In this document: piece after piece, positions 38,078-48,195 of the stretch
Position numbering within the stretch: position 1 is the first letter of the stretch
Layout: every line of letters begins with the position of its first letter
Assembly (NCBI GenBank): GCA_031761875.1
Contig: CP134492.1
Coordinates: forward strand, 620,001 to 684,000
Direction: 5' to 3'
Length of the DNA: 64,000 nucleotides
Origin: Bacillaceae bacterium IKA-2
GTDB taxonomy: Bacteria; Bacillota; Bacilli; Bacillales; Anaerobacillaceae
Made by a program: the position numbers and the translations under genes
Notes under the pieces: model-generated
What the model was told of the DNA's origin: nothing
Databases searched by the model: none
What the model saw: only the letters and a program-made list of their open reading frames with translations

Positions 38078-38128
38078 TGTATTTGTCAACTCAAAAGCGG
38101 TCCACGAATCAGTTGAAAAAAGGTCCAC

Positions 38129-38875
38129 TTATTTAGTTGGTTTTAGCCATGACATTGTCTCTTCAAATCGGTGACTTACTTCTCGTGAAATATCTAAGAT
38201 ATGTGATTTGTGAGCAAGTCTATCTACAATTGCACCAGTAAGCATCGGGTCTTTAAAAATCTCTTCCCAGCGATCAAAAGCCAAGTTTGTTGTTATGATT
38301 ATTGATCCTTTATCGTTTCTATTTGATAATAAATTAAATAGTATTTCACAACCAATTTTGTCAAATGATACGTATCCCAGTTCATCTAAAACGACAAGAC
38401 TGTACTTTTCAAATTTGGTTTTATATTGCGATAGTTTGCTTTCACTCATTGCTTCTTTTAACTCTATTATTAAGTTAGGTACAGAGATAAACAATACACT
38501 TTTGCCTTCCAAACACGCCTTAATACCAAGCCCAATACTATAATGTGATTTCCCGCAGCCAGGAGATCCTATTAAGATTATATTTTCTTTATTTTCAATG
38601 AACTGCAACGTTTCTAGTTCTTCGAATTTCGGTATAAATTTCTTATGGTACTTACTCTTGTCGAAGTCTTCTAAGTACTTGTTAAGAGGGAATTTAGCCC
38701 TTCTGAGTCTATGTTTTAAACCATTCTCAAGCCTTAGTTCTAATTCTCTTTCGAGTAGACGACTTATCAGCTCTCGGTGGGTCATGTTTGTATGGTTTGC
38801 TTCATCAAGAAGCATTTGATAATTGGTTTTTATATAGGGTAATTTTAGTATATGGGCCATTTCTTGTATTTGCAT
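38129..38875 (-). CDS. istB: IS21-family helper ATPase IstB
   Basis: This 248-residue AAA+ ATPase assists target selection by IstA. The Walker A loop is LIGSPGCGKSHYSIGLG and Walker B is SLVVLDELGYV, followed by IIITTNLAFDRWEEIFKD and the family's VDRLAHKSHILDI. The start codon follows the istA stop directly (TAA-ATG), the standard coupling in IS21. It appears intact. Confidence 0.95.
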   Translation of the reverse strand: MQIQEMAHILKLPYIKTNYQMLLDEANHTNMTHRELISRLLERELELRLENGLKHRLRRAKFPLNKYLEDFDKSKYHKKFIPKFEELETLQFIENKENIILIGSPGCGKSHYSIGLGIKACLEGKSVLFISVPNLIIELKEAMSESKLSQYKTKFEKYSLVVLDELGYVSFDKIGCEILFNLLSNRNDKGSIIITTNLAFDRWEEIFKDPMLTGAIVDRLAHKSHILDISREVSHRFEETMSWLKPTK

Positions 38876-39556
38876 TTATTCCACCTCCGAGAAACATAAT
38901 TCGTTATATCTAGATACTTGCCTTGTAGCGATGTTGCTAAGTGCAGTTTTATCTATGTGCATAGATGGAATAATATCGATATGAGATTTATTGTATGTTT
39001 CTAGAATCAATAGTATTTCTTCGATTGGTTTATCATCATTTTCTTGAATGATCTCTATGAATTTTTTCTTGTTTCTGCTAAAATTAGTATCATAGATGGC
39101 TTTTAACCTTGGTATGCTTTTTAGAGCGTGGGAGTTCTTGATTGCACCTGGTTTTTTGTTTAATGAGTTTAAGTAATGTTTAATTTTAATACTTATCTCG
39201 TTAGTACCATCTATTTTTTTGTGTTCACAAACGAGTATGTTGTTTGAATAAAAGCCTATTGTGTCGTAATATTTCTTGATTGTTATTAAGCGTCCTACAA
39301 GATACTCCGGTACTGAATAGTGGTTGTTATCAACTCGTACAAAACTATATTTATTTGGTTTTTGCACTGTAACTGTTGCAAGATCAAGCTTTGGTTTTGT
39401 AGGTTGAAGATGTTTTATTTCTTCAGAAATAGTGCTGTCTTTATTGAGTTCTATCAATATAGTATTCAAGTATTCACGTGCATCATCGAATGTCTTAAAC
39501 TTATAAGTTAACGCAAATGCTTTGTTCCTAATTATCTTCACGCTGCCCTCCACATG
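38876..39556 (-). pseudogene. istA: IstA transposase, C-terminal part (split gene)
   Basis: This is the distal half of the transposase. It begins at HVEGSVKIIRNKAFALTYKF, the segment that follows the catalytic Glu in IS21 transposases, and has no start of its own beyond an internal GTG. It ends next to istB. It is separated from the N-terminal part by the RIT element. Joining ACCCTTCT at 39557-39564 to the same octamer at 43057-43064 rebuilds ...GNEKG-HVEG... in frame. Confidence 0.9.
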
Positions 39557-39582
39557 ACCCTTCTAATGCAAAGCTTTACATT

Positions 39583-39674
39583 AGAAGGGTAATGAAAAGT
39601 ATATGATAATGTAAAGTAAGGCTGTTAAATAACCGTAAGTAAAGGATCCCTCGCTGTTTTACTTTACATTATCT
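39583..39674. repeat. Left end of the RIT element: outer inverted repeat plus inner mirrored copy
   Basis: The outer arm (39583-39633) begins AGAAGGGTAATGAAAAGTAT. Its segment GATAATGTAAAGTAA (39605-39619) is mirrored at 39660-39674 by TTACTTTACATTATC. The paired arms look like tyrosine recombinase binding sites around a central spacer. Confidence 0.8.
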
Positions 39675-39691
39675 GCAACGCAAACACTATT

Positions 39692-40711
39692 TTATTTATC
39701 AAATCTTTTTAGCCATTCCAATAAATCTCCACTTTTTTGCCAAGAAGGTGCACCTTTTGGTACAACATCTGTATATGCTTTTTCAATTGCTTCTCTTTTT
39801 TGTTTTGAATCTACCTTAGCGTAAATTTCAGTTGTTTGGACAGAACGGTGACCTAGTATATCACGGATGTATATGAGATTAACTCCTGCTTGGAGTAAGT
39901 GCATAGCTTTTGAATGTCTCAGACAATGACAGCTAAATCGTTCTGGGATTAATATTTGATCTTTAATACGAGCCTTGCGTGCATATTTATCTAGTATGTA
40001 ATTCACCCCTGCCCGGGTCAGTTTTTCTCCTCTTTTGTTACAGAACAATGGGTACATGTTTGCTGACAAACTTAACAGCCCCTGCTCATCCATATATCGA
40101 TTTAATAAATCTAACGGAGCATCCATCAGAGGGACTATCCGGGCTTTATTCCCCTTACCAATTAACTTTACAGTACATGGTCTGTCAAAACGTACTTGTG
40201 ACGGAGTGAGGTCAATGATTTCCTGTACTCTTCCACCGCTTTCATACATAATTGACAAAAGAGCAAGATCTCTTCGTCCTATTTTAGTTGACTGATCAGG
40301 CATTTCCAAAAGTAGTCTGATCCCATTAAGCGTTAGGTAACTGATTGATTTTGTTTCTGTTTTCTTAACCCGGATTCCAAGGATTCTCTGCCATTCCAAA
40401 AGATTATCGGGGCTCTGATACTGGAGATATTGGAAGAAAGAGTGTAATGCCGCAAGGCGGACGTTCCTTGTGGCTGTACTACAGCCACGCTCTGTTTCTA
40501 TCCAGTCAAGAAAGTGAATAACCATTTCCTTATTAATCATGCCCAGCGTCAGAGAATTTGTTTTTATTCCTTTTTTATCCTTGATAAATGTAAGGAAAAG
40601 TACAAATGTGTCTCTATAAGAGGCAATCGTATTTATACTGAACCCCATTTCTCCTGGCAGGTATTTTGTAAGAAATCCTGTCAGATAGCGAGAGAAATCA
40701 GTCGGCTTCAT
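39692..40711 (-). CDS. Tyrosine recombinase, third gene of the RIT trio
   Basis: This 339-residue phage-integrase-family protein has an N-terminal SAM-like core-binding region (about 8-95) and a C-terminal catalytic domain. The active-site residues are the Arg in ESGGRVQEIIDL, the HxLR motif in SCHCLRHSKAMHLLQAG, the His in LGHRSVQT and the Tyr in TTEIYAKVD. The start at 40711 is chosen because GGAGGTTGACC lies just upstream. It overlaps the preceding gene by 14 bp. Confidence 0.9.
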   Translation of the reverse strand: MKPTDFSRYLTGFLTKYLPGEMGFSINTIASYRDTFVLFLTFIKDKKGIKTNSLTLGMINKEMVIHFLDWIETERGCSTATRNVRLAALHSFFQYLQYQSPDNLLEWQRILGIRVKKTETKSISYLTLNGIRLLLEMPDQSTKIGRRDLALLSIMYESGGRVQEIIDLTPSQVRFDRPCTVKLIGKGNKARIVPLMDAPLDLLNRYMDEQGLLSLSANMYPLFCNKRGEKLTRAGVNYILDKYARKARIKDQILIPERFSCHCLRHSKAMHLLQAGVNLIYIRDILGHRSVQTTEIYAKVDSKQKREAIEKAYTDVVPKGAPSWQKSGDLLEWLKRFDK

Positions 40712-41672
40712 AATGGTCAACCTCCGGAAATACATAGGCACAAACGTTATCTACTTCTCTAATTAAATCAGGGTACATGTCAGATGTTAGCCTTACATAC
40801 TTATCTGTAGCCTCTAATGACTGATGCCCAAGATATTTTGATAATATTGGGAGTGAGTAGTATAAATCTAGCCCAGCTTCTGACATTTTCACAAGAGAGT
40901 GTACACTGAAAGTGTGACGAAAGTCATGCATTCTTGGGCCAAAACCCTTCCCACCATGTGGAATTCCTGCATTCCAGAGTATTTTTCTGAACCATTCATA
41001 TATTGCCTTGGCATTACATTTTTGCCCATTGTTCTTGATAAAAAAATAACCTTTCGGTTCATATTTGCCGGGACGAACATTCCTATATTGAATACACACC
41101 TCAGTTAGTGTTTCAGATAATGGGAGTATTCGGTCTTTGCCGTTTTTCGTTTCCCTGACAATAATATTTTTTGCATCAAGATCAACATCCTTACATGTTA
41201 GGGATAACGCTTCGCTGATACGGATGCCACAGCCATATAGCATTCTAAATAAAGCGGGGAGTACATACACAGTTGTTTCAAATCGTCTATTAACTTTAAG
41301 CGTATCACATGCATCGAAGAATGCATTCACTTCCTTTTTCGAGAAAATATGTGGTACAAACGTACTGCTGTACTTTTTAGGCAATCTCGGTATATGTGAT
41401 GGATATCCCATATCATTTAAATAGGCGGAAAATTTTGCAATATAATGAATCCTCGCATAACGTGTCTTGTCTGATTCATTTGGACGCTTCTCACTCCATT
41501 TATCAACAATCTCCTTTGATAGACCGAGTTTTAATACGGCATTATCTATTGTAAATCTGTCAAATAACGAAAGTGTGTAAGTGGCATCAACAAACTTGTA
41601 ACCGAGGTTTCTTTTGAAATCAATGTACTGTTCGATTAAACCAGCATAAATACCACAATAGTTCGGCATCAT
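40698..41672 (-). CDS. Tyrosine recombinase, second gene of the RIT trio
   Basis: This is a 324-residue integrase-family protein. Catalytic residues are the Arg in YGCGIRISEALSL, HDFRHTFSVHSL, the His in LGHQSLEAT and the Tyr in DKYVRLTSD. Its ATG overlaps the stop of the first gene (ATGA at 41669-41672) and follows AGGAGG, so it is translationally coupled. The frame opens further upstream, but that would overlap the first gene by 58 bp. Confidence 0.9.
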   Translation of the reverse strand: MMPNYCGIYAGLIEQYIDFKRNLGYKFVDATYTLSLFDRFTIDNAVLKLGLSKEIVDKWSEKRPNESDKTRYARIHYIAKFSAYLNDMGYPSHIPRLPKKYSSTFVPHIFSKKEVNAFFDACDTLKVNRRFETTVYVLPALFRMLYGCGIRISEALSLTCKDVDLDAKNIIVRETKNGKDRILPLSETLTEVCIQYRNVRPGKYEPKGYFFIKNNGQKCNAKAIYEWFRKILWNAGIPHGGKGFGPRMHDFRHTFSVHSLVKMSEAGLDLYYSLPILSKYLGHQSLEATDKYVRLTSDMYPDLIREVDNVCAYVFPEVDHYEAD

Positions 41673-42916
41673 TCCACCTCCTTGGCATAAAATGGCGTTT
41701 TTAAGAGTGGAACATCTAATGCGCATTGGCTCAAAGATGTTAAGTCTATTCGTAAATAAGTTTTTGTGCTTTCGGTATTCTTGTGACCTAGCACTTCTGA
41801 TATAACATGGATGGGTATTTTTTGTTCCAGTAGTTGCCCAGCAAGACTGTGCCTCAAAGCATGAGGACCATGTTTCTTTTCTGTTATGTTTTTAATGCCA
41901 GCACGACGGAGATAAAAAGTAACAATGCTATGCAAAGTCGATCTATTTAGGCAGTTATATGGCGGGATTGCATGTAGGAAGACATAAGGAAGATCAGATT
42001 TAGGCCGTCCATACTTCAGATAATCGATAATAGCCTCTCCTATTTCTATTAAAAGTGGATGCTCAATCTTATTTTTAGTCTTTTGTTGAACAAGTGTAAT
42101 TGTATTCTTTTCCCAGTGTATGTTTTCAAACTTCAACAGACAGATGTCAGAAGCCCTCAATCCCAATCGTGCAGCCAATAGTATCATAGCAGCATCACGC
42201 TTCCCTTTTGGGCTACTTCTGTCAACAGTATTGATTAATGATTCAACTTCATTTTTCGTATATGTCGTGGGTAGTTTACATTGCTTCTTGTAATTGTCTT
42301 TTGGAATTAGGTATGAAAAGTCAATCCCTGTATACCCATTGTCATGTAGATATCTCATAAACCCACGTAAAGTGGTAAGCATGCTGTGGCGCGTTGCAGG
42401 TGTATAAAAACCAAGCTGATTCACAAATCCTAAAATGTGTTGTTTTTTAATTGCTTCGGTTTCCATGACTCCTTCTTCATTAAAAAAACTAAGAAAGCGA
42501 TGAAGATTTAATCGGTAATGACCAAGCGTATTTTCTGTAATACCCAAAGATTTTCGGTGATTAAGGAAATCCACCATAGGATTACCGATGCAACCATAAA
42601 ATTGGTAGGATTTCTTTGCCCTTCTGTATTGGAACGTTCCTGTAGACTGAAATTCAGTTAGAACATCCACACACCGGATTATGCTCTTTTCCCAATGGCT
42701 AAATTCCTCGTATTTCCCAGTACCAATAAAGTCAGCTATAAATGCTCCACCTACTGACGCTGAATAATACTCAATCTGATTGTTTTCCATAAAAGTAGCC
42801 AGTTTTTGCCACGCGGAACGATATTGGCTTATCCTTGATTCGGAATAGGACATATCCCGAAGGGATTTAACTACTTCTGAGGACAGTTGTTCAAATGTTT
42901 GATATTTTTGTTCCAT
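41669..42916 (-). CDS. Tyrosine recombinase, first gene of the RIT trio
   Basis: This 415-residue protein is the longest of the three. Its N-terminal ~200 residues include two core-binding-like segments, and the C-terminal catalytic domain has the Arg in RLGLRASDICLL, HALRHSLAGQLLEQ, the His in LGHKNTEST and the Tyr in KTYLRIDLT. TAGGAGG lies 8 nt before the chosen ATG; another ATG two codons earlier is too close to that site. A long palindrome lies directly upstream. Confidence 0.9.
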   Translation of the reverse strand: MEQKYQTFEQLSSEVVKSLRDMSYSESRISQYRSAWQKLATFMENNQIEYYSASVGGAFIADFIGTGKYEEFSHWEKSIIRCVDVLTEFQSTGTFQYRRAKKSYQFYGCIGNPMVDFLNHRKSLGITENTLGHYRLNLHRFLSFFNEEGVMETEAIKKQHILGFVNQLGFYTPATRHSMLTTLRGFMRYLHDNGYTGIDFSYLIPKDNYKKQCKLPTTYTKNEVESLINTVDRSSPKGKRDAAMILLAARLGLRASDICLLKFENIHWEKNTITLVQQKTKNKIEHPLLIEIGEAIIDYLKYGRPKSDLPYVFLHAIPPYNCLNRSTLHSIVTFYLRRAGIKNITEKKHGPHALRHSLAGQLLEQKIPIHVISEVLGHKNTESTKTYLRIDLTSLSQCALDVPLLKTPFYAKEVE

Positions 42917-42930
42917 AATCATAACCTCCT

Positions 42931-42966
42931 ATATTTAACGTAGGCGACCTCGCCTATATTAAATAT
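42931..42966. promoter_or_regulatory. 36-bp interrupted palindrome ahead of the RIT recombinase genes
   Basis: ATATTTAA (42931-42938) and TAGGCGA (42941-42947) are mirrored by TCGCCTA (42950-42956) and TTAAATAT (42959-42966). It lies at the 5' end of the trio, next to the first gene's ribosome site. It could be an autoregulatory operator or a leader hairpin that hides that site. Confidence 0.6.
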
Positions 42967-42975
42967 AGCCATTGA

Positions 42976-43064
42976 AAATGTAAAGTAAAACAACTAGAAT
43001 CACTTTGTTTATAGTTATCTAACAGCCTTACTTTACATTATCATATACTTTTCATTACCCTTCT
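42976..43064. repeat. Right end of the RIT element: outer inverted repeat plus inner mirrored copy
   Basis: The outer arm (43014-43064) ends ATATACTTTTCATTACCCTT then CT, mirroring the left end. The inner copy is AATGTAAAGTAAAACAAC, beginning at 42977. It faces TTACTTTACATT near 43029-43040. Confidence 0.8.
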
Positions 43065-43842
43065 CGTTTCCACTGAAACAATTAGTGACGTTGATATCGA
43101 ATCCGTAGTAGAGTGACAATTTTAGCAAATTCTCATTGAGGACTTTTTCAGTTTTACCTATGAATTTTGATACTACATTTCTCATATTGTCGTACACAAT
43201 CTCTGAATAAACGCCACCTAACATATCGAAGAAACGCACATGAGAATCCATAAAGACGTCTTGCTTTTGATTCTTATATAAATACGCCCATCTGAAATCA
43301 GCAGCTGGTGAAGATAGTACAGCTAGATGATAGGTATTGATCTCCCCGTTTATTTCTAACTTCACTTCGCCAAAATCATATTCAAGTCTTTGCCCTAAAT
43401 CATATGATTGTTTAATAAAGCATTCCTTAGGTTTGTTTCTTTTTTCTCTGATTTTATTTGTAATAGTTGTATATCCAATATCAAACTTTTCATTGACTAG
43501 CATTTGGTGAATTTGCAAATTAGTCAGCTGTTGTTTATGTCGACCTAACTCTTTACACTTTTCAGATTCACTCTCTAGGATTTCGTCTAATCTGGTATCG
43601 ATTTCTGCTGTGTACTTTCTTGGCTTTCTATTTTGAGCATTATACTTTGGTGCCTCGCATATTTTTTCTTGTACTTCTTGTACTTCTTTTTTATTAACGT
43701 CTAAGGCATTCAACAGAGTATTGTTCTTCTGGTACTCATTCCAATAGATTGCGACTGTTTTCCGATTGATGTTTAAAAGCTTGGCAGCTTTTCTATTGGA
43801 TACACCTTGCTGCTTTAGTTTTATTATTGCATGTTTGTCCAT
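43033..43842 (-). pseudogene. istA: IstA transposase, N-terminal part (split gene)
   Basis: The first 262 residues of the transposase are intact up to GNEKG, followed by a few codons read from the RIT end (NEKYMIM) and a stop. The helix-turn-helix is at residues 1-40 (KQQGVSNRKAAKLLNINRKT). The DDE residues are D156 in EYDFGEV, D218 in VYDNMR and E260 in GNEKG. The RIT insertion lies two codons after this Glu. With the distal part the repaired protein would have about 488 residues. The start MDKHAII at 43842 is preferred over 43881. Confidence 0.88.
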
Positions 43843-43968
43843 TATCTCAATCACTCCATCCCACCCCTTTACTGCCATCATAACAGTAAGAGATTAGTGT
43901 TAAAGTACTGGACCGTTTTTCAATTGATATTATTCTATTAATGGGCCACTTTTAGAGTATCATAAACA

Positions 43969-44305: not shown

Positions 44306-44422
44306 GCAAATATAAAAACAACTTTATTTTAAAGGATACTAGCTAGGTATTTGAGTTAATGTAAATAATTAACTCTTTATTGCACAAACTATAAATAAAT
44401 TATCTAGTTCGTGAGGTGCTTC

Positions 44423-45526
44423 ATGAATTACATCAAGATATCTACAGCTCAAGCGTTAATGATCTTAATTTCAAGTATAACAGTTACCGGTCATCTCTTG
44501 TTTATTCCTGTCATCTTAAATCATTCTGGGAGAGACGGGTGGATATCGGTTTTATTATCTTTTTTTTCTATAATTTATATTATCTATATTATTACGAAGT
44601 TGTCATTACGTTATCAAGGCCAAACGATTATCGAGTATGCAGAAATAATTTTGGGGAAGTATTTCGGAAAAATATTATCCTTAGTGTTAATATTTTATTT
44701 TTTTCACGATGGAACTTTATCGATTAGAGGTTTTGGGGAGTTTTACACAACGGAGATAACACCGGATGCTCCTATATTAATATACTTGACTTTGATTGTT
44801 ATTTTGGCAGTATACACAGTTCGGCAAGGTTTAGAAGTTCTCGTCAGAACGAATCAGTTTTTTTTGGTAGTTATGGTCATAATTGGAATCACGGCATCAA
44901 TGGTGACTTTTCCCGAGAAGGATTATCGAAACCTCTTACCAATTCTAGAGTTTGGTATCCAACCAGTATTAATGGGGGCACTAAGTTTGACTTCCCTTTT
45001 CAGCACATTTGTTGTTGCAGGGATGATTTTCCCGTATATATATGACCCGAAATCTTTAAAACGATTTAGTTTAGTAACTGGCATTATGTTAATTTTGTTA
45101 TTTCTAGGTCCGATAACAGGACCTATAGCAGTTTATGGTGGTGAAAGAGCAGTTGGCTTTGCATTCCCAACGTTTCAGTTGTTACGCGATATATCAATAG
45201 GAGATATCCAACGCTTAGATTTATTTGGGATACTACTTTGGTCAATGGGATCATTTTCAAAAATATCGCTTCATCTTTTTGCGACTAGTCTAGGTATAGC
45301 AAAGCTTTTTAAGTTAAATGATTATAAACCATTAATTATTCCAGTGGGCGCACTAATGATTATAGTTGGCTTACAAAATAGTGAAAATTTCATTGAGGTT
45401 TATCGTTTTTTAAAAGATGTTTATCCGTATTACTCAACTTTAATCGGTATATTACTTCCTTCAATTTTATTTTTATTTTCGACTATTCAAATGAAAAGTA
45501 AAAAAGGGAGTAGCCAAAATGTCTAA
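44423..45526 (+). CDS. Spore germinant receptor B subunit (GerAB/GerKB family)
   Basis: This 367-residue membrane protein is of the APC-like endospore germination permease family with ~10 helices. The opening KISTAQALMILISSITVTGH and the conserved LPILEFGIQPVLMGA are typical. The B subunit sits in the inner spore membrane and is thought to bind the germinant. The start at 44423 follows GAGGTG; it overlaps the A gene by 8 bp. Unlike many ger operons the order is B-A-C. The germinant is unknown. Confidence 0.9.
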   Translation: MNYIKISTAQALMILISSITVTGHLLFIPVILNHSGRDGWISVLLSFFSIIYIIYIITKLSLRYQGQTIIEYAEIILGKYFGKILSLVLIFYFFHDGTLSIRGFGEFYTTEITPDAPILIYLTLIVILAVYTVRQGLEVLVRTNQFFLVVMVIIGITASMVTFPEKDYRNLLPILEFGIQPVLMGALSLTSLFSTFVVAGMIFPYIYDPKSLKRFSLVTGIMLILLFLGPITGPIAVYGGERAVGFAFPTFQLLRDISIGDIQRLDLFGILLWSMGSFSKISLHLFATSLGIAKLFKLNDYKPLIIPVGALMIIVGLQNSENFIEVYRFLKDVYPYYSTLIGILLPSILFLFSTIQMKSKKGSSQNV

Positions 45527-47030
45527 AAATAAAACTGAAGATAAAGAATTAAATGAACTTCTCAAAAATGGCGTATTGTTGAGAAAAACATTTTCGGAAA
45601 AAATTTCTGAAATAAAGGTAATCTTTGGAGAAAGTAGTGATTTTACTGTTCGTCAATTAGGTAACGATGAACAGGTCAAAATAGCGATCCTGTACTTTGA
45701 TACGTTAGCTGAAAAGCAATTTATAGAAGAATTTGTTGTAAAAGAATATAAAGAATATTTGCAAGCCAATAAAGGAATCGGTGCTGAAGAAAATGTAAGC
45801 AACTTATTTATATCACAATTAAAAATATCCTCTGTAAAAGAAGCTGTTGAACAGCTTTTAGAAGGGAATTCGGTCATATTAATTGAGAATATTGAGGGAG
45901 GATTTGTTGCTAAATCAGAAGGTGGGGAGCGAAGAGGAGTATCAGAACCAGTAAATACAACGCTAGTGCGCGGTTCTCATGAGGCTTTCAATGAGTCACT
46001 TAGCACAAACATTGGTTTACTACGAAAGAGAATTAATAATTATAAATTTCGTGTAGATATATTAAAAATTGGTAAAGAAACGAACACTCCTGTTGCGATT
46101 GTTTACATTAACGGAATTGCAAAAAAAGAACTTGTATCAGAAATAAAACAACGGTTAGAAGACATTGAAATTGATTCTGTATTGGAATCTTATAATCTTC
46201 AAGAATGTATTGAAGATTATCAAGGGTATACACCTTTTCCGACAATGTTTGACTCAGAATTGCCAGATCAAATAGCTGGTGGGTTATTGGAAGGACGAAT
46301 TGCTATTCTGACAGAAGGAACTCCAATTGCGCTATTAGCGCCTGTAACAATGAATTTATTTCTGAGCTCCAATGAAGATTATTATCAACGATACGATATA
46401 GCATCTTTTTTAAGGGTTTTAAGGACAGTAACTTTTCAAATATCGCTCTCTTTTCCAGCATTTTATATAGTTTTGCTGACTTTTCATCAAGAAATGATCC
46501 CTACTTCATTACTTATTGCTTTAACAGGACAAAGGGAGGGTGTACCATTTTCTGTTGCTATAGAAGTACTCTTAATGGAACTAACATTTGAAATTCTAAG
46601 AGAGGCAGGGTTACGGCTCCCCAAATCTATTGGTTCAGCAGTTAGTATCGTTGGGGGTTTAGTTTTGGGACAAGCAGTAGTTGAGGCTGGGTTAGTCGGT
46701 GCAGGAACAGTAATTACAGTTGCACTAACCGCTATTTCATCTGCCTGCACACCTTCTTATAGCCTTGCAATTGCAGCTAGGCTAATTCGCTTAGTACTAA
46801 TTTTCTTTGGCGCGGCACTCGGTGGTTTTGGCTTAATGTTTGGTTTGATTTTTGTGTTTGTTCATTTAAATACGTTACGTTCTTTGGGTGTACCCTATCT
46901 TGCACCTGTGATTCCTTTTCATAAGCATGGTTGGTATGATGCGTTTTTTCGAATGCCAAACAAAAGTAGAAAGTTTCGTCCTGAAGAAATAGTTGGTGAA
47001 AATAAGCAGAGAGTTGCCAATAAGAAGTAA
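45519..47030 (+). CDS. Spore germinant receptor A subunit (GerAA/GerKA family)
   Basis: This 503-residue protein has a large soluble N-terminal region (about 1-250) and a C-terminal membrane region. Family motifs include YINGIAKKELV, the block IAGGLLEGRIAILTEGTPIA, the SSNEDYYQRYDIASFLRVLR loop, and LGVPYLAPVIPF. It forms the receptor complex with the B and C subunits. It is translated through an 8-bp overlap with the B gene. Confidence 0.94.
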   Translation: MSKNKTEDKELNELLKNGVLLRKTFSEKISEIKVIFGESSDFTVRQLGNDEQVKIAILYFDTLAEKQFIEEFVVKEYKEYLQANKGIGAEENVSNLFISQLKISSVKEAVEQLLEGNSVILIENIEGGFVAKSEGGERRGVSEPVNTTLVRGSHEAFNESLSTNIGLLRKRINNYKFRVDILKIGKETNTPVAIVYINGIAKKELVSEIKQRLEDIEIDSVLESYNLQECIEDYQGYTPFPTMFDSELPDQIAGGLLEGRIAILTEGTPIALLAPVTMNLFLSSNEDYYQRYDIASFLRVLRTVTFQISLSFPAFYIVLLTFHQEMIPTSLLIALTGQREGVPFSVAIEVLLMELTFEILREAGLRLPKSIGSAVSIVGGLVLGQAVVEAGLVGAGTVITVALTAISSACTPSYSLAIAARLIRLVLIFFGAALGGFGLMFGLIFVFVHLNTLRSLGVPYLAPVIPFHKHGWYDAFFRMPNKSRKFRPEEIVGENKQRVANKK

Positions 47031-47046
47031 TAAGGGTGCAAATATA

Positions 47047-48195
47047 ATGAAGATAATAAAATTATTTTTAATCTTTATATATAGTTTAATTTTAGTAGGG
47101 TGCTGGAATAAACATGAAATAAATGAAATTGCGATTGTTATTGGGGTGGGCATAGATAAAATTGAGGATCAATATGTTGTCACTGCCCAAGTGATCAAAC
47201 CATTACCAAAAGGAGGCGGTGGTGGAGAAGATTTGTCAACATGGAGTATAACAAGTAGGGACATAACTGTTGGCAACGCAATAAATGAGTTAAGTAGTAT
47301 TTCGCCACGCCCCCTATATTGGCCACATTTACAAATTATTATTTTTAGTGAGGCGGTTGCAAAAGAGGGGTTAGGGCAAGTAATTAGTTGGTTCACAAGA
47401 GATCGGGATAGTAGAGCAGGGGCTTATGTTGTTGTAACAAGAGGAAAGGCAGAAGATCTTCTCAACCAGACAATAGAATTAGGCGAAATGCCTGCAAAAT
47501 CTATGGCTTCATTTCTGGACACGGCTGAAATACGAAATATTTCCTTGAATAAATTAAAGCTAACTAACCTTGCTAGTATTTTATCTACTCCAGGAAATGA
47601 TGGAACATTAGATGTAATTGCGTTAAAGGAAATTCGTGGAGAGGTAGAAACTTACCAAATAACCGGAACTGCTATCTTGAAGAAGGACCAACTGATTGGT
47701 TATCTTCCAATTGAGATTGATGATGCTGTTCAGATGGCAAAGAATGAGTATGAACGAGGGGTAATTTCTACAGCTTGTCCAAACGAAGAAGGCTCTTATA
47801 TAACATTTCGGATAACAGATTTTGAAAATGAGCTATCTTTAACATTTTCAAAAAATATACCAACTGTAAAAATGAATATTTTTATTGAGGGAAATATTAT
47901 TGATCAAGAATGTCCAATAGATTTACTAGATCCAAGAAATATAAGTGAAATTGAGGATTTGATTAAAGAAGAAATACAGCAAATGATTCAAAAGGCGTTT
48001 AATGAAACGGCAGAGTTGGGTGCAGATGTTTTTGGAATCGGTCAGGAAATTAGAAGAAAACGGCCAAAGGTTTGGACGGAAATTCAAGATGAGGATCGGA
48101 TATATCTTAAAGATCTAAAATTAGAAATACATGTAGATGCGAACATTCGTCGTACGGGGCTTATTATTGATTCTACGATAAATAAAATTAAATAA
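47047..48195 (+). CDS. Spore germinant receptor C lipoprotein (GerAC/GerKC family)
   Basis: This 382-residue Ger(x)C lipoprotein has a signal peptide and lipobox (LILVGC; Cys followed by WNKHEINEIAIVIGVGID). The family's typical AEDLLNQTIELGEMPA and ADVFGIGQEIRRKRPKVW near the end are present. It is anchored outside the inner spore membrane and completes the receptor. The start at 47047 was chosen as it gives a proper signal peptide and follows AAGGGTG; the frame opens earlier, inside the A gene. Confidence 0.92.
   Translation: MKIIKLFLIFIYSLILVGCWNKHEINEIAIVIGVGIDKIEDQYVVTAQVIKPLPKGGGGGEDLSTWSITSRDITVGNAINELSSISPRPLYWPHLQIIIFSEAVAKEGLGQVISWFTRDRDSRAGAYVVVTRGKAEDLLNQTIELGEMPAKSMASFLDTAEIRNISLNKLKLTNLASILSTPGNDGTLDVIALKEIRGEVETYQITGTAILKKDQLIGYLPIEIDDAVQMAKNEYERGVISTACPNEEGSYITFRITDFENELSLTFSKNIPTVKMNIFIEGNIIDQECPIDLLDPRNISEIEDLIKEEIQQMIQKAFNETAELGADVFGIGQEIRRKRPKVWTEIQDEDRIYLKDLKLEIHVDANIRRTGLIIDSTINKIK

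Follow-up and report, generated by a model that had tools for sequence, protein, structure and literature searches.

A stretch of 64,000 nucleotides from Bacillaceae bacterium IKA-2 (contig CP134492.1, positions 620,001 to 684,000; hereafter the window, to which coordinates refer unless another locus is named) carries a recombinase-in-trio (RIT) element inserted in istA, the transposase gene of an IS21-family insertion sequence (IS). Judged by its sequence, the element belongs to the RIT family. Comparison with its copies and relatives makes it probable that it is a transposon moving by tyrosine-recombinase site-specific recombination, through a circle with two core sites, into motif-specific targets. 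A little less firmly, we favor the view that the whole RIT class consists of homing transposons whose prey is for the most part other mobile elements: they would enter active-site codons (Lys-Gly of istA, Walker A or B of istB, PQGG of reverse transcriptases, RY of a tyrosine recombinase), tolerate synonymous change, pass through a two-core circle, take either orientation and keep in a spare spacer a record of an earlier target. The construction of the ends, the implied two-core circle and the active-site-codon target rule of related RITs look new; no description of the site anatomy or of a target rule was found in the literature searched, although some of it may already be given in Ricker 2013, Van Houdt 2009 or Nielsen 2017.

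The host IS occupies positions 38078..43968 on the minus strand and measures 5,891 bp with the RIT included. Since empty copies measure 2,391 bp, the insert is exactly 3,500 bp long. Both istA and istB lie within the defined ends of the IS, and a 5-bp target duplication (AATGT) is present. The gene istB, encoding the IS21 helper ATPase (38129..38875, minus strand; PF01695, NF038214), adjoins the 3' part of istA (HVEGSVK...; 38876..39557, minus strand; PF22483), which lies on the hairpin side of the insertion, and the 5' part (43064..43881, minus strand) ends in ...CFSGN ahead of the spacer codons. The N-terminal part of the interrupted protein matches the NCBIfam model transpos_IS21 with 130.5 bits, below the cut-off of 160, and the C-terminal part matches Mu-transpos_C_2. 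Within the insert lie ritA (41669..42922; 417 aa), ritB (40698..41726; 342 aa as called) and ritC (39692..40741; 349 aa as called from GTG), all on the minus strand, adjacent and overlapping, and each a Phage_integrase protein (PF00589) in a Pfam scan. All three retain the R-H-R-H-Y residues that we take to be the catalytic set, with positions read from alignments (R256, H354, R357, H380 and Y389 in RitA; R169, H267, R270, H301 and Y310 in RitB; R171, H272, R275, H298 and Y307 in RitC). The trio is flanked by a 45-bp perfect inverted repeat, which is part of a 91-bp repeat (86%). The three overlapping recombinase genes, the 45-bp repeats and the interruption of istA had all been described in an earlier note made from the sequence, and they were confirmed here by the open reading frames, a repeat search, and Pfam and NCBIfam matches.

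The ends of the element have a more intricate structure than a pair of inverted repeats. From the hairpin side the order is target, outer spacer, S, inner spacer, E, far spacer, target. The outer spacer, CCCTTC (GAAGGG in gene sense; 39558..39563), is present as a single copy in the empty sites L029 and L030 (loci and genomes carry our own L and G labels). S (39564..39583), which is part of the element, is a 20-bp near-palindrome, TAATGCAAAGCTTTACATTA, consisting of two inverted TWATGNAAAG half-sites. E, the RIT body (39590..43057; 3,468 bp, with terminal inverted repeats), starts and ends with the same half-site, and the far spacer CCCTTC follows at 43058..43063. Because the half-sites of S face the same half-site at the start of E, the inner spacer GAAGGG (39584..39589) sits in a core-site-like sequence, CTTTACATTA-GAAGGG-TAATGAAAAG; two inverted half-sites around 6 bp are what we take to be the usual core-site type of tyrosine recombinases. 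The inner spacer thus lies within the form of a complete core, and the element looks as if it carries a spare core site. Seven of the nine TWATGNAAAG matches found in the window are at the element ends. Additional inverted half-sites lie subterminally, GATAATGTAAAGTAA and TTACTTTACATTATC at the ritC end (39605..39673) and a pair with one imperfect member at the ritA end (42974..43042). Outside the trio E consists of only 102 and 135 bp, with no fourth co-oriented gene.

The earlier note had proposed that both outer boundaries can be read to the base. They can, but the inverted repeats are not outermost on both sides, since the palindrome and an extra spacer lie beyond them on the 39.56-kb side. 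The octamer that it predicted for the junction, AGAAGGGT, does occur once in the empty site, which is provided by two uninterrupted IS copies in the same genome, but the relatives narrow the common spacer to the 6 bp GAAGGG. A simple 8-bp target duplication was rejected and a spacer of 6 bp preferred: within relatives the spacers differ, and the neighboring bases belong to half-sites. While the element and its insertion were correctly recognized, the S palindrome, the other copies, the two orientations and the anatomy and targets of the relatives had no place in that account.

The window's own genome (G000; 4.42 Mb, one contig) contains 20 full-length RIT copies that are identical over the 3,459 bp compared save for one base in L028, and the insertion is therefore not a chance feature. 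The 5' region of istA is found in 21 copies, only two of which (L029, L030) have no insert. The 3,500-bp insertion lies at one spacer, GAAGGG, which spans the Lys-Gly pair of istA codons. Target duplications of 5-7 bp flank 17 of the 21 IS copies with both ends found, 16 of these 17 being filled, and are missing from L014, L019, L025 and L030. The 22 places examined in G000 comprise 11 copies in the order S-E, eight in which S and E are both reverse-complemented, one two-hairpin copy (L020) and the two empty sites. Whatever the orientation of E, S stands on the istA 3' side in all 19 two-sided copies; S is uncoupled from E in none of the 19, and no copy is without S.

These observations can be accommodated by the following scheme. 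The element would leave as a circle with the junction E-spacer-S-inverted spacer-E, a nearly perfect palindrome that contains two equivalent core sites; 122 of the 132 positions of the predicted junction are self-complementary. Either core of the circle would then be crossed by the recombinases with the single spacer of a target, such that the core used sets the orientation of the element and the polarity of the target sets the side of S. Because the left or the right core of the circle can cross the target spacer, two orientations would arise with S always on one side. If the crossover tolerates mismatches in the 6-bp spacer, spacers of past targets would be carried along, mostly with wobble differences. 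Each RIT lineage would recognize one conserved coding motif, mostly in other mobile elements; in the lineage of the window this motif would be the Lys-Gly codons of istA, which adjoin that of the Glu presumed to be catalytic in the IS21 transposase.

Several unusual copies in G000 should be mentioned here. L020 (G000:C1:2182733-2192257) is flanked on either side by a hairpin and an istA 3' half, and in two relatives, L114 and L121, there is likewise a hairpin at both ends with same-side target halves on both flanks; these two-hairpin copies perhaps originate from homologous recombination between oppositely oriented copies. The IS of L023 is 5,879 bp long; next to the RIT, its istA 3' part has a small deletion that shortens the IS by 12 bp. 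The empty IS L030 and the filled IS L019 have AATGGT in common, the former in its left flank and the latter in its right, which suggests recombination between IS copies. A second, distantly similar recombinase trio is located at L146:2999-6036 (G000:C1:about 2467500-2470540; 342, 356 and 315 aa), where one inverted-repeat search revealed no RIT-like end repeats. In the six other genomes of the genus the IS had no match; matches were confined to the surrounding DNA.

Relatives of RitA occur beyond this genome. Counting the genome of the window itself, homologs were found in 2 of 7 genomes of the family and 5 of 397 of the order (both at E 1e-70), and in 13 of 398 of the class and 23 of 398 of the phylum (both at E 1e-60). 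Other sources yielded five loci (genome_contigs) and 11 plasmid records; none was found in viral_contigs. The end survey lists 45 loci, of which 44 were examined (L064a had no placed ritC) and 36, including the window, were tabulated; L055, L063 and L137 stand outside the locus list. Omitted from the tabulation are L052 and L053 (element-only contigs), L054 and L129 (no end repeat), L122 (rearranged), L133 (masked flanks), and L064a, L114 and L121 (hairpin at both ends). Left out of the survey were one of four rows outside G000 from the order search (G272), four of 15 from the class search (G505 twice, G589, G409), seven of 31 from the phylum search (G834, G1117, G1087, G816, G959, G847, G1077) and seven of the 11 plasmid records. 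S was chosen by eye for L130, L131, L132 and L135.

A spacer-S-spacer hairpin is present at one or both ends in 38 of the 44 loci examined, and in 23 of the 36 tabulated the inner spacer is an exact inverted copy of the outer one. The far end was not found for L061 and L139 (13/24 match in L139). In four genomes with copies in both orientations (G983, G486, G956, G843) S is the exact reverse complement between the opposite copies; a fifth such genome, G1072, is uninformative on S. Two further observations are worth noting. In G731, a second copy of the reverse transcriptase gene contains a spacer-S-spacer hairpin (L159:about 2536-2600) directly followed by other DNA, with no recombinase trio in the 10-kb stretch; its sequence suggests a relic that broke at the inner core. 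In G905, two RIT copies in istB genes (L123, L124) have the same hairpin-side flank and different far flanks.

The spacers themselves vary in an informative way. In the three main target classes (26 loci), the spacers of an element differ among themselves at 29 positions in all, and 23 of these are third codon positions of the interrupted gene, where one third is expected (binomial P 5e-7, with positions treated as independent); the figure becomes 19 of 19 when L126, L134, L141 and L142, which also differ elsewhere in the codons, are removed, a choice made after seeing them. The outer spacer equals the inner and differs from the far one in five loci (L065, L066, L109a, L130, L134), the inner equals the far and differs from the outer in another five (L062, L112, L128, L131, L142), and the outer equals the far and differs from the inner in two (L110, L132). 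Such patterns are what unbiased resolution of a heteroduplex, of the kind that occurs in Tn916, would give. Additionally, in the pairs L109a/L110 and L115/L116 the inner spacer of one copy is the target-junction spacer of its oppositely oriented partner. A spare core that keeps the spacer of an earlier target would lead one to expect this, and it is suggestive of a single jump in which the inner core was used and the element flipped; the reverse history fits equally, and the direction of the move cannot be told.

A conserved motif could be assigned as the target in 33 of the 36 tabulated loci by reading of the flanks and Pfam matches; where several loci come from one genome, they do not count as independent lineages. 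In istA the target is the Lys-Gly codons, in 13 loci including that of the window, plus one variant (L135); Walker A of istB in eight (L139 on one side only); the Walker B Asp-Glu of istB in two; the PQGG motif of group II intron-type reverse transcriptases in six (TLQGG in L062); the CGIH motif of an amidoligase in two; and the TTERYL motif of an annotated site-specific integrase on plasmid pHG1, which has no Pfam match, in one. By analogy with retroviral-type integrases, the Glu just downstream of the istA Lys-Gly motif is presumed to be the third catalytic residue. Pfam supports the target genes with PF01695 in 9 of 9 istB pieces, PF00078 in 6 of 6 reverse transcriptase pieces, PF12224 in 2 of 2 amidoligase pieces, and rve or Mu-transpos_C_2 in 8 of 11 istA pieces (among the eight, L109b and L135 are below the curated cut-off). 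The strand of the target gene relative to S is constant within a class, in 13 of 13 istA and 6 of 6 reverse transcriptase loci, while E lies either way; for Walker A of istB it is constant in six of eight by the longest frame, and L131 and L139, read as IstB, have the same strand.

In G983, an RIT identical over 3,448 of 3,448 bp is located in four istA genes: three are strongly diverged, with 20-26% identity between their N-terminal pieces and 27-34% between their C-terminal pieces, and the fourth is close to one of them. Because the identical RIT sits in diverged genes, the motif rather than the surrounding gene appears to be shared. In the diverged pairs of G983, G486 and G956 the hairpin-side flank has 13-18 of 30 bases identical and the far flank 8-13 of 30.

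Target class tracks the RitA tree. This tree has 28 rows, with the same-genome copies L109b, L110, L113, L116, L118 and L124 taken out and L114 kept; istA (98/95), istB Walker A (100/99) and reverse transcriptase (100/99) need one change each, and none of 500 shuffles gave a number as low. In the RitC tree istA also needs one change (86/87). The trio is homologous to and colinear with that of Cupriavidus necator pHG1, with 30% (A), 35% (B) and 45% (C) identity in the best segments, which bears out the identification as RIT made in the earlier note. In the predicted structure of RitA there are two sets of four helices (10-94 and 110-194), with predicted local distance difference test (pLDDT) scores mostly 72-92 in these blocks, in a model that is poor as a whole (mean 59.6). 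Pfam recognizes one SAM-like domain, at 127-194; RitA is reported to have two sequential core-binding domains (PMC8138268), which the two helix sets may reflect. As for the extra C-terminal helix of RIT-type RitC, a helix at 340-346 is predicted with a pLDDT below 50.

Other explanations of these data must be weighed. The RIT could be inactive cargo that entered istA once or twice and was then spread by transposition of the IS, intact copies helping in trans. This is possible, if on the doubtful side: 19 of the 20 copies share one insertion site in the same IS, both halves of which are present, all are almost identical, and target duplications surround most of the filled IS copies. It would nonetheless take at least two recombination events to produce both orientations with S turning along, and the RIT of G983, identical in three strongly diverged istA genes, goes against it; for that reason RITs of such kind appear to jump alone. 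The two orientations could also be attributed to inversion of E in place between the inner and far core-like sites, which are inverted repeats and could recombine. This seems hardly credible, and we rejected it as the source of orientation, because inversion would turn E alone, which happened in 0 of 19 copies, and all four informative two-orientation genomes agree that S is never uncoupled.

Movement through a folded single strand, in the manner of attC sites, or by a copy-out route such as has been proposed for strand-biased elements, would assign the S hairpin a role in recognition. Most tabulated elements have a near-perfect spacer-S-spacer hairpin, with the exact spacer pairing counted above, and SE elements, which also use tyrosine recombinases, are described as regenerating no empty site (PMC10214605). 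Such a route would favor one spacer pattern, whereas the patterns are unbiased, 5 against 5, and we hold it to be unlikely. Finally, targeting of motifs might be a by-product of the abundance of IS21 elements and introns together with inheritance within lineages, in which case nothing would recognize the motif. Co-inheritance would equally give the agreement of target class with the RitA tree; identical or nearly identical elements within one genome nevertheless occupy the same codons in targets whose flanks have little in common, and this explanation is very unlikely. Movement by site-specific recombination of a two-core circle into coding motifs is thus the reading we prefer.

A number of points weigh against this preference. 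The circle and the movement have been inferred from sequence, and neither was observed. RIT jumping and spread by the IS are inseparable in G000, because the copies are almost identical and two founders suffice. The tabulation is no unbiased test of the anatomy, because loci were chosen for the palindrome; no hairpin is tabulated in six of the 44 loci (L052, L053, L133, L054, L122, L129), in 13 of 36 rows the inner spacer departs from an exact inverted copy of the outer one, and the spacing in L056 does not read as 6 bp. Six of the 29 spacer differences lie off third codon positions. No empty target was found in G983, G486 and G956 from which the native spacers of mixed elements could be read, and the second target copy in G731 is unusable, itself broken by the hairpin relic. 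As for the targets, none is assigned in L056 and L061, and the flanks of L138 mismatch, with ArdA on one side and a recombinase zinc ribbon on the other. The istA label is motif-based in L111, L120 and L125, which have helix-turn-helix or weak other Pfam matches only, and the istA pieces of L110, L119 and L126 were outside the Pfam scan. The RitC tree is weak for target classes, with one change for reverse transcriptase (37/85) and two for istB Walker A.

Directly beside the IS, the open reading frames at 44411-48195 resemble a spore-germination receptor operon. From the copies of the element come its exact ends, the empty site and the crossover spacer, as well as a prediction of the circle and a target rule, all of them testable. 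If true, homing of a recombinase system on coding motifs, with tolerance at wobble positions, would be an unusual form of target specificity, and mobile elements would prey on the catalytic cores of other mobile elements.

Several known systems share features with the one proposed here. The coupling sequences of Tn916 are 6-bp spacers in which mismatch is allowed and which are carried to the next site; this tolerance and carriage are what the two have in common, while the putative junction here has two inverted cores around a palindrome, three recombinases and narrow targets. Homing endonucleases and inteins use conserved active-site codons as targets and tolerate wobble changes; here, in contrast, a recombinase transposon would be at work, and its targets are mostly genes of mobile elements. 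Tn554 is similar in its tyrosine recombinases, 6-bp footprint and target specificity, and different in having two recombinases and TnpC, while all three proteins here are PF00589 members and none is a non-recombinase protein of the TnpC type.

RIT elements were described in 2009, according to a reference list (PMC10214605). Published RIT reports give a length of ~3.5 kb, some variation of the ends, a 28-9 bp inverted repeat with an overlapping palindrome, and insertions in a Tn6049-related transposase gene, radC and the tnpA of IS66 (PMC3414803, PMC10214605, PMC2864759, PMC8138268); pHG1 is named there as particularly rich in RIT proteins (PMC3414803), and a 2023 paper lists target specificity, the empty site and movement of RITs as not tested (PMC10214605). 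The element of the window agrees with these RITs in its overlapping ritA-ritB-ritC genes, its length of ~3.5 kb, the end repeat with a palindrome, its multiple copies and, for some, insertion in transposase genes; it differs in that these reports give the variation of the ends with no explanation, whereas here the ends, the two core-like sites, the 6-bp spacer, the empty site and the motifs are read from the sequence. GInt and SE elements likewise have several recombinase genes, site-specific insertion and variants of the attachment site; in them, however, both GinC and Tfp are without the catalytic residues and a fourth protein is required, while all three recombinases here keep these residues (PMC5385486, PMC10214605).

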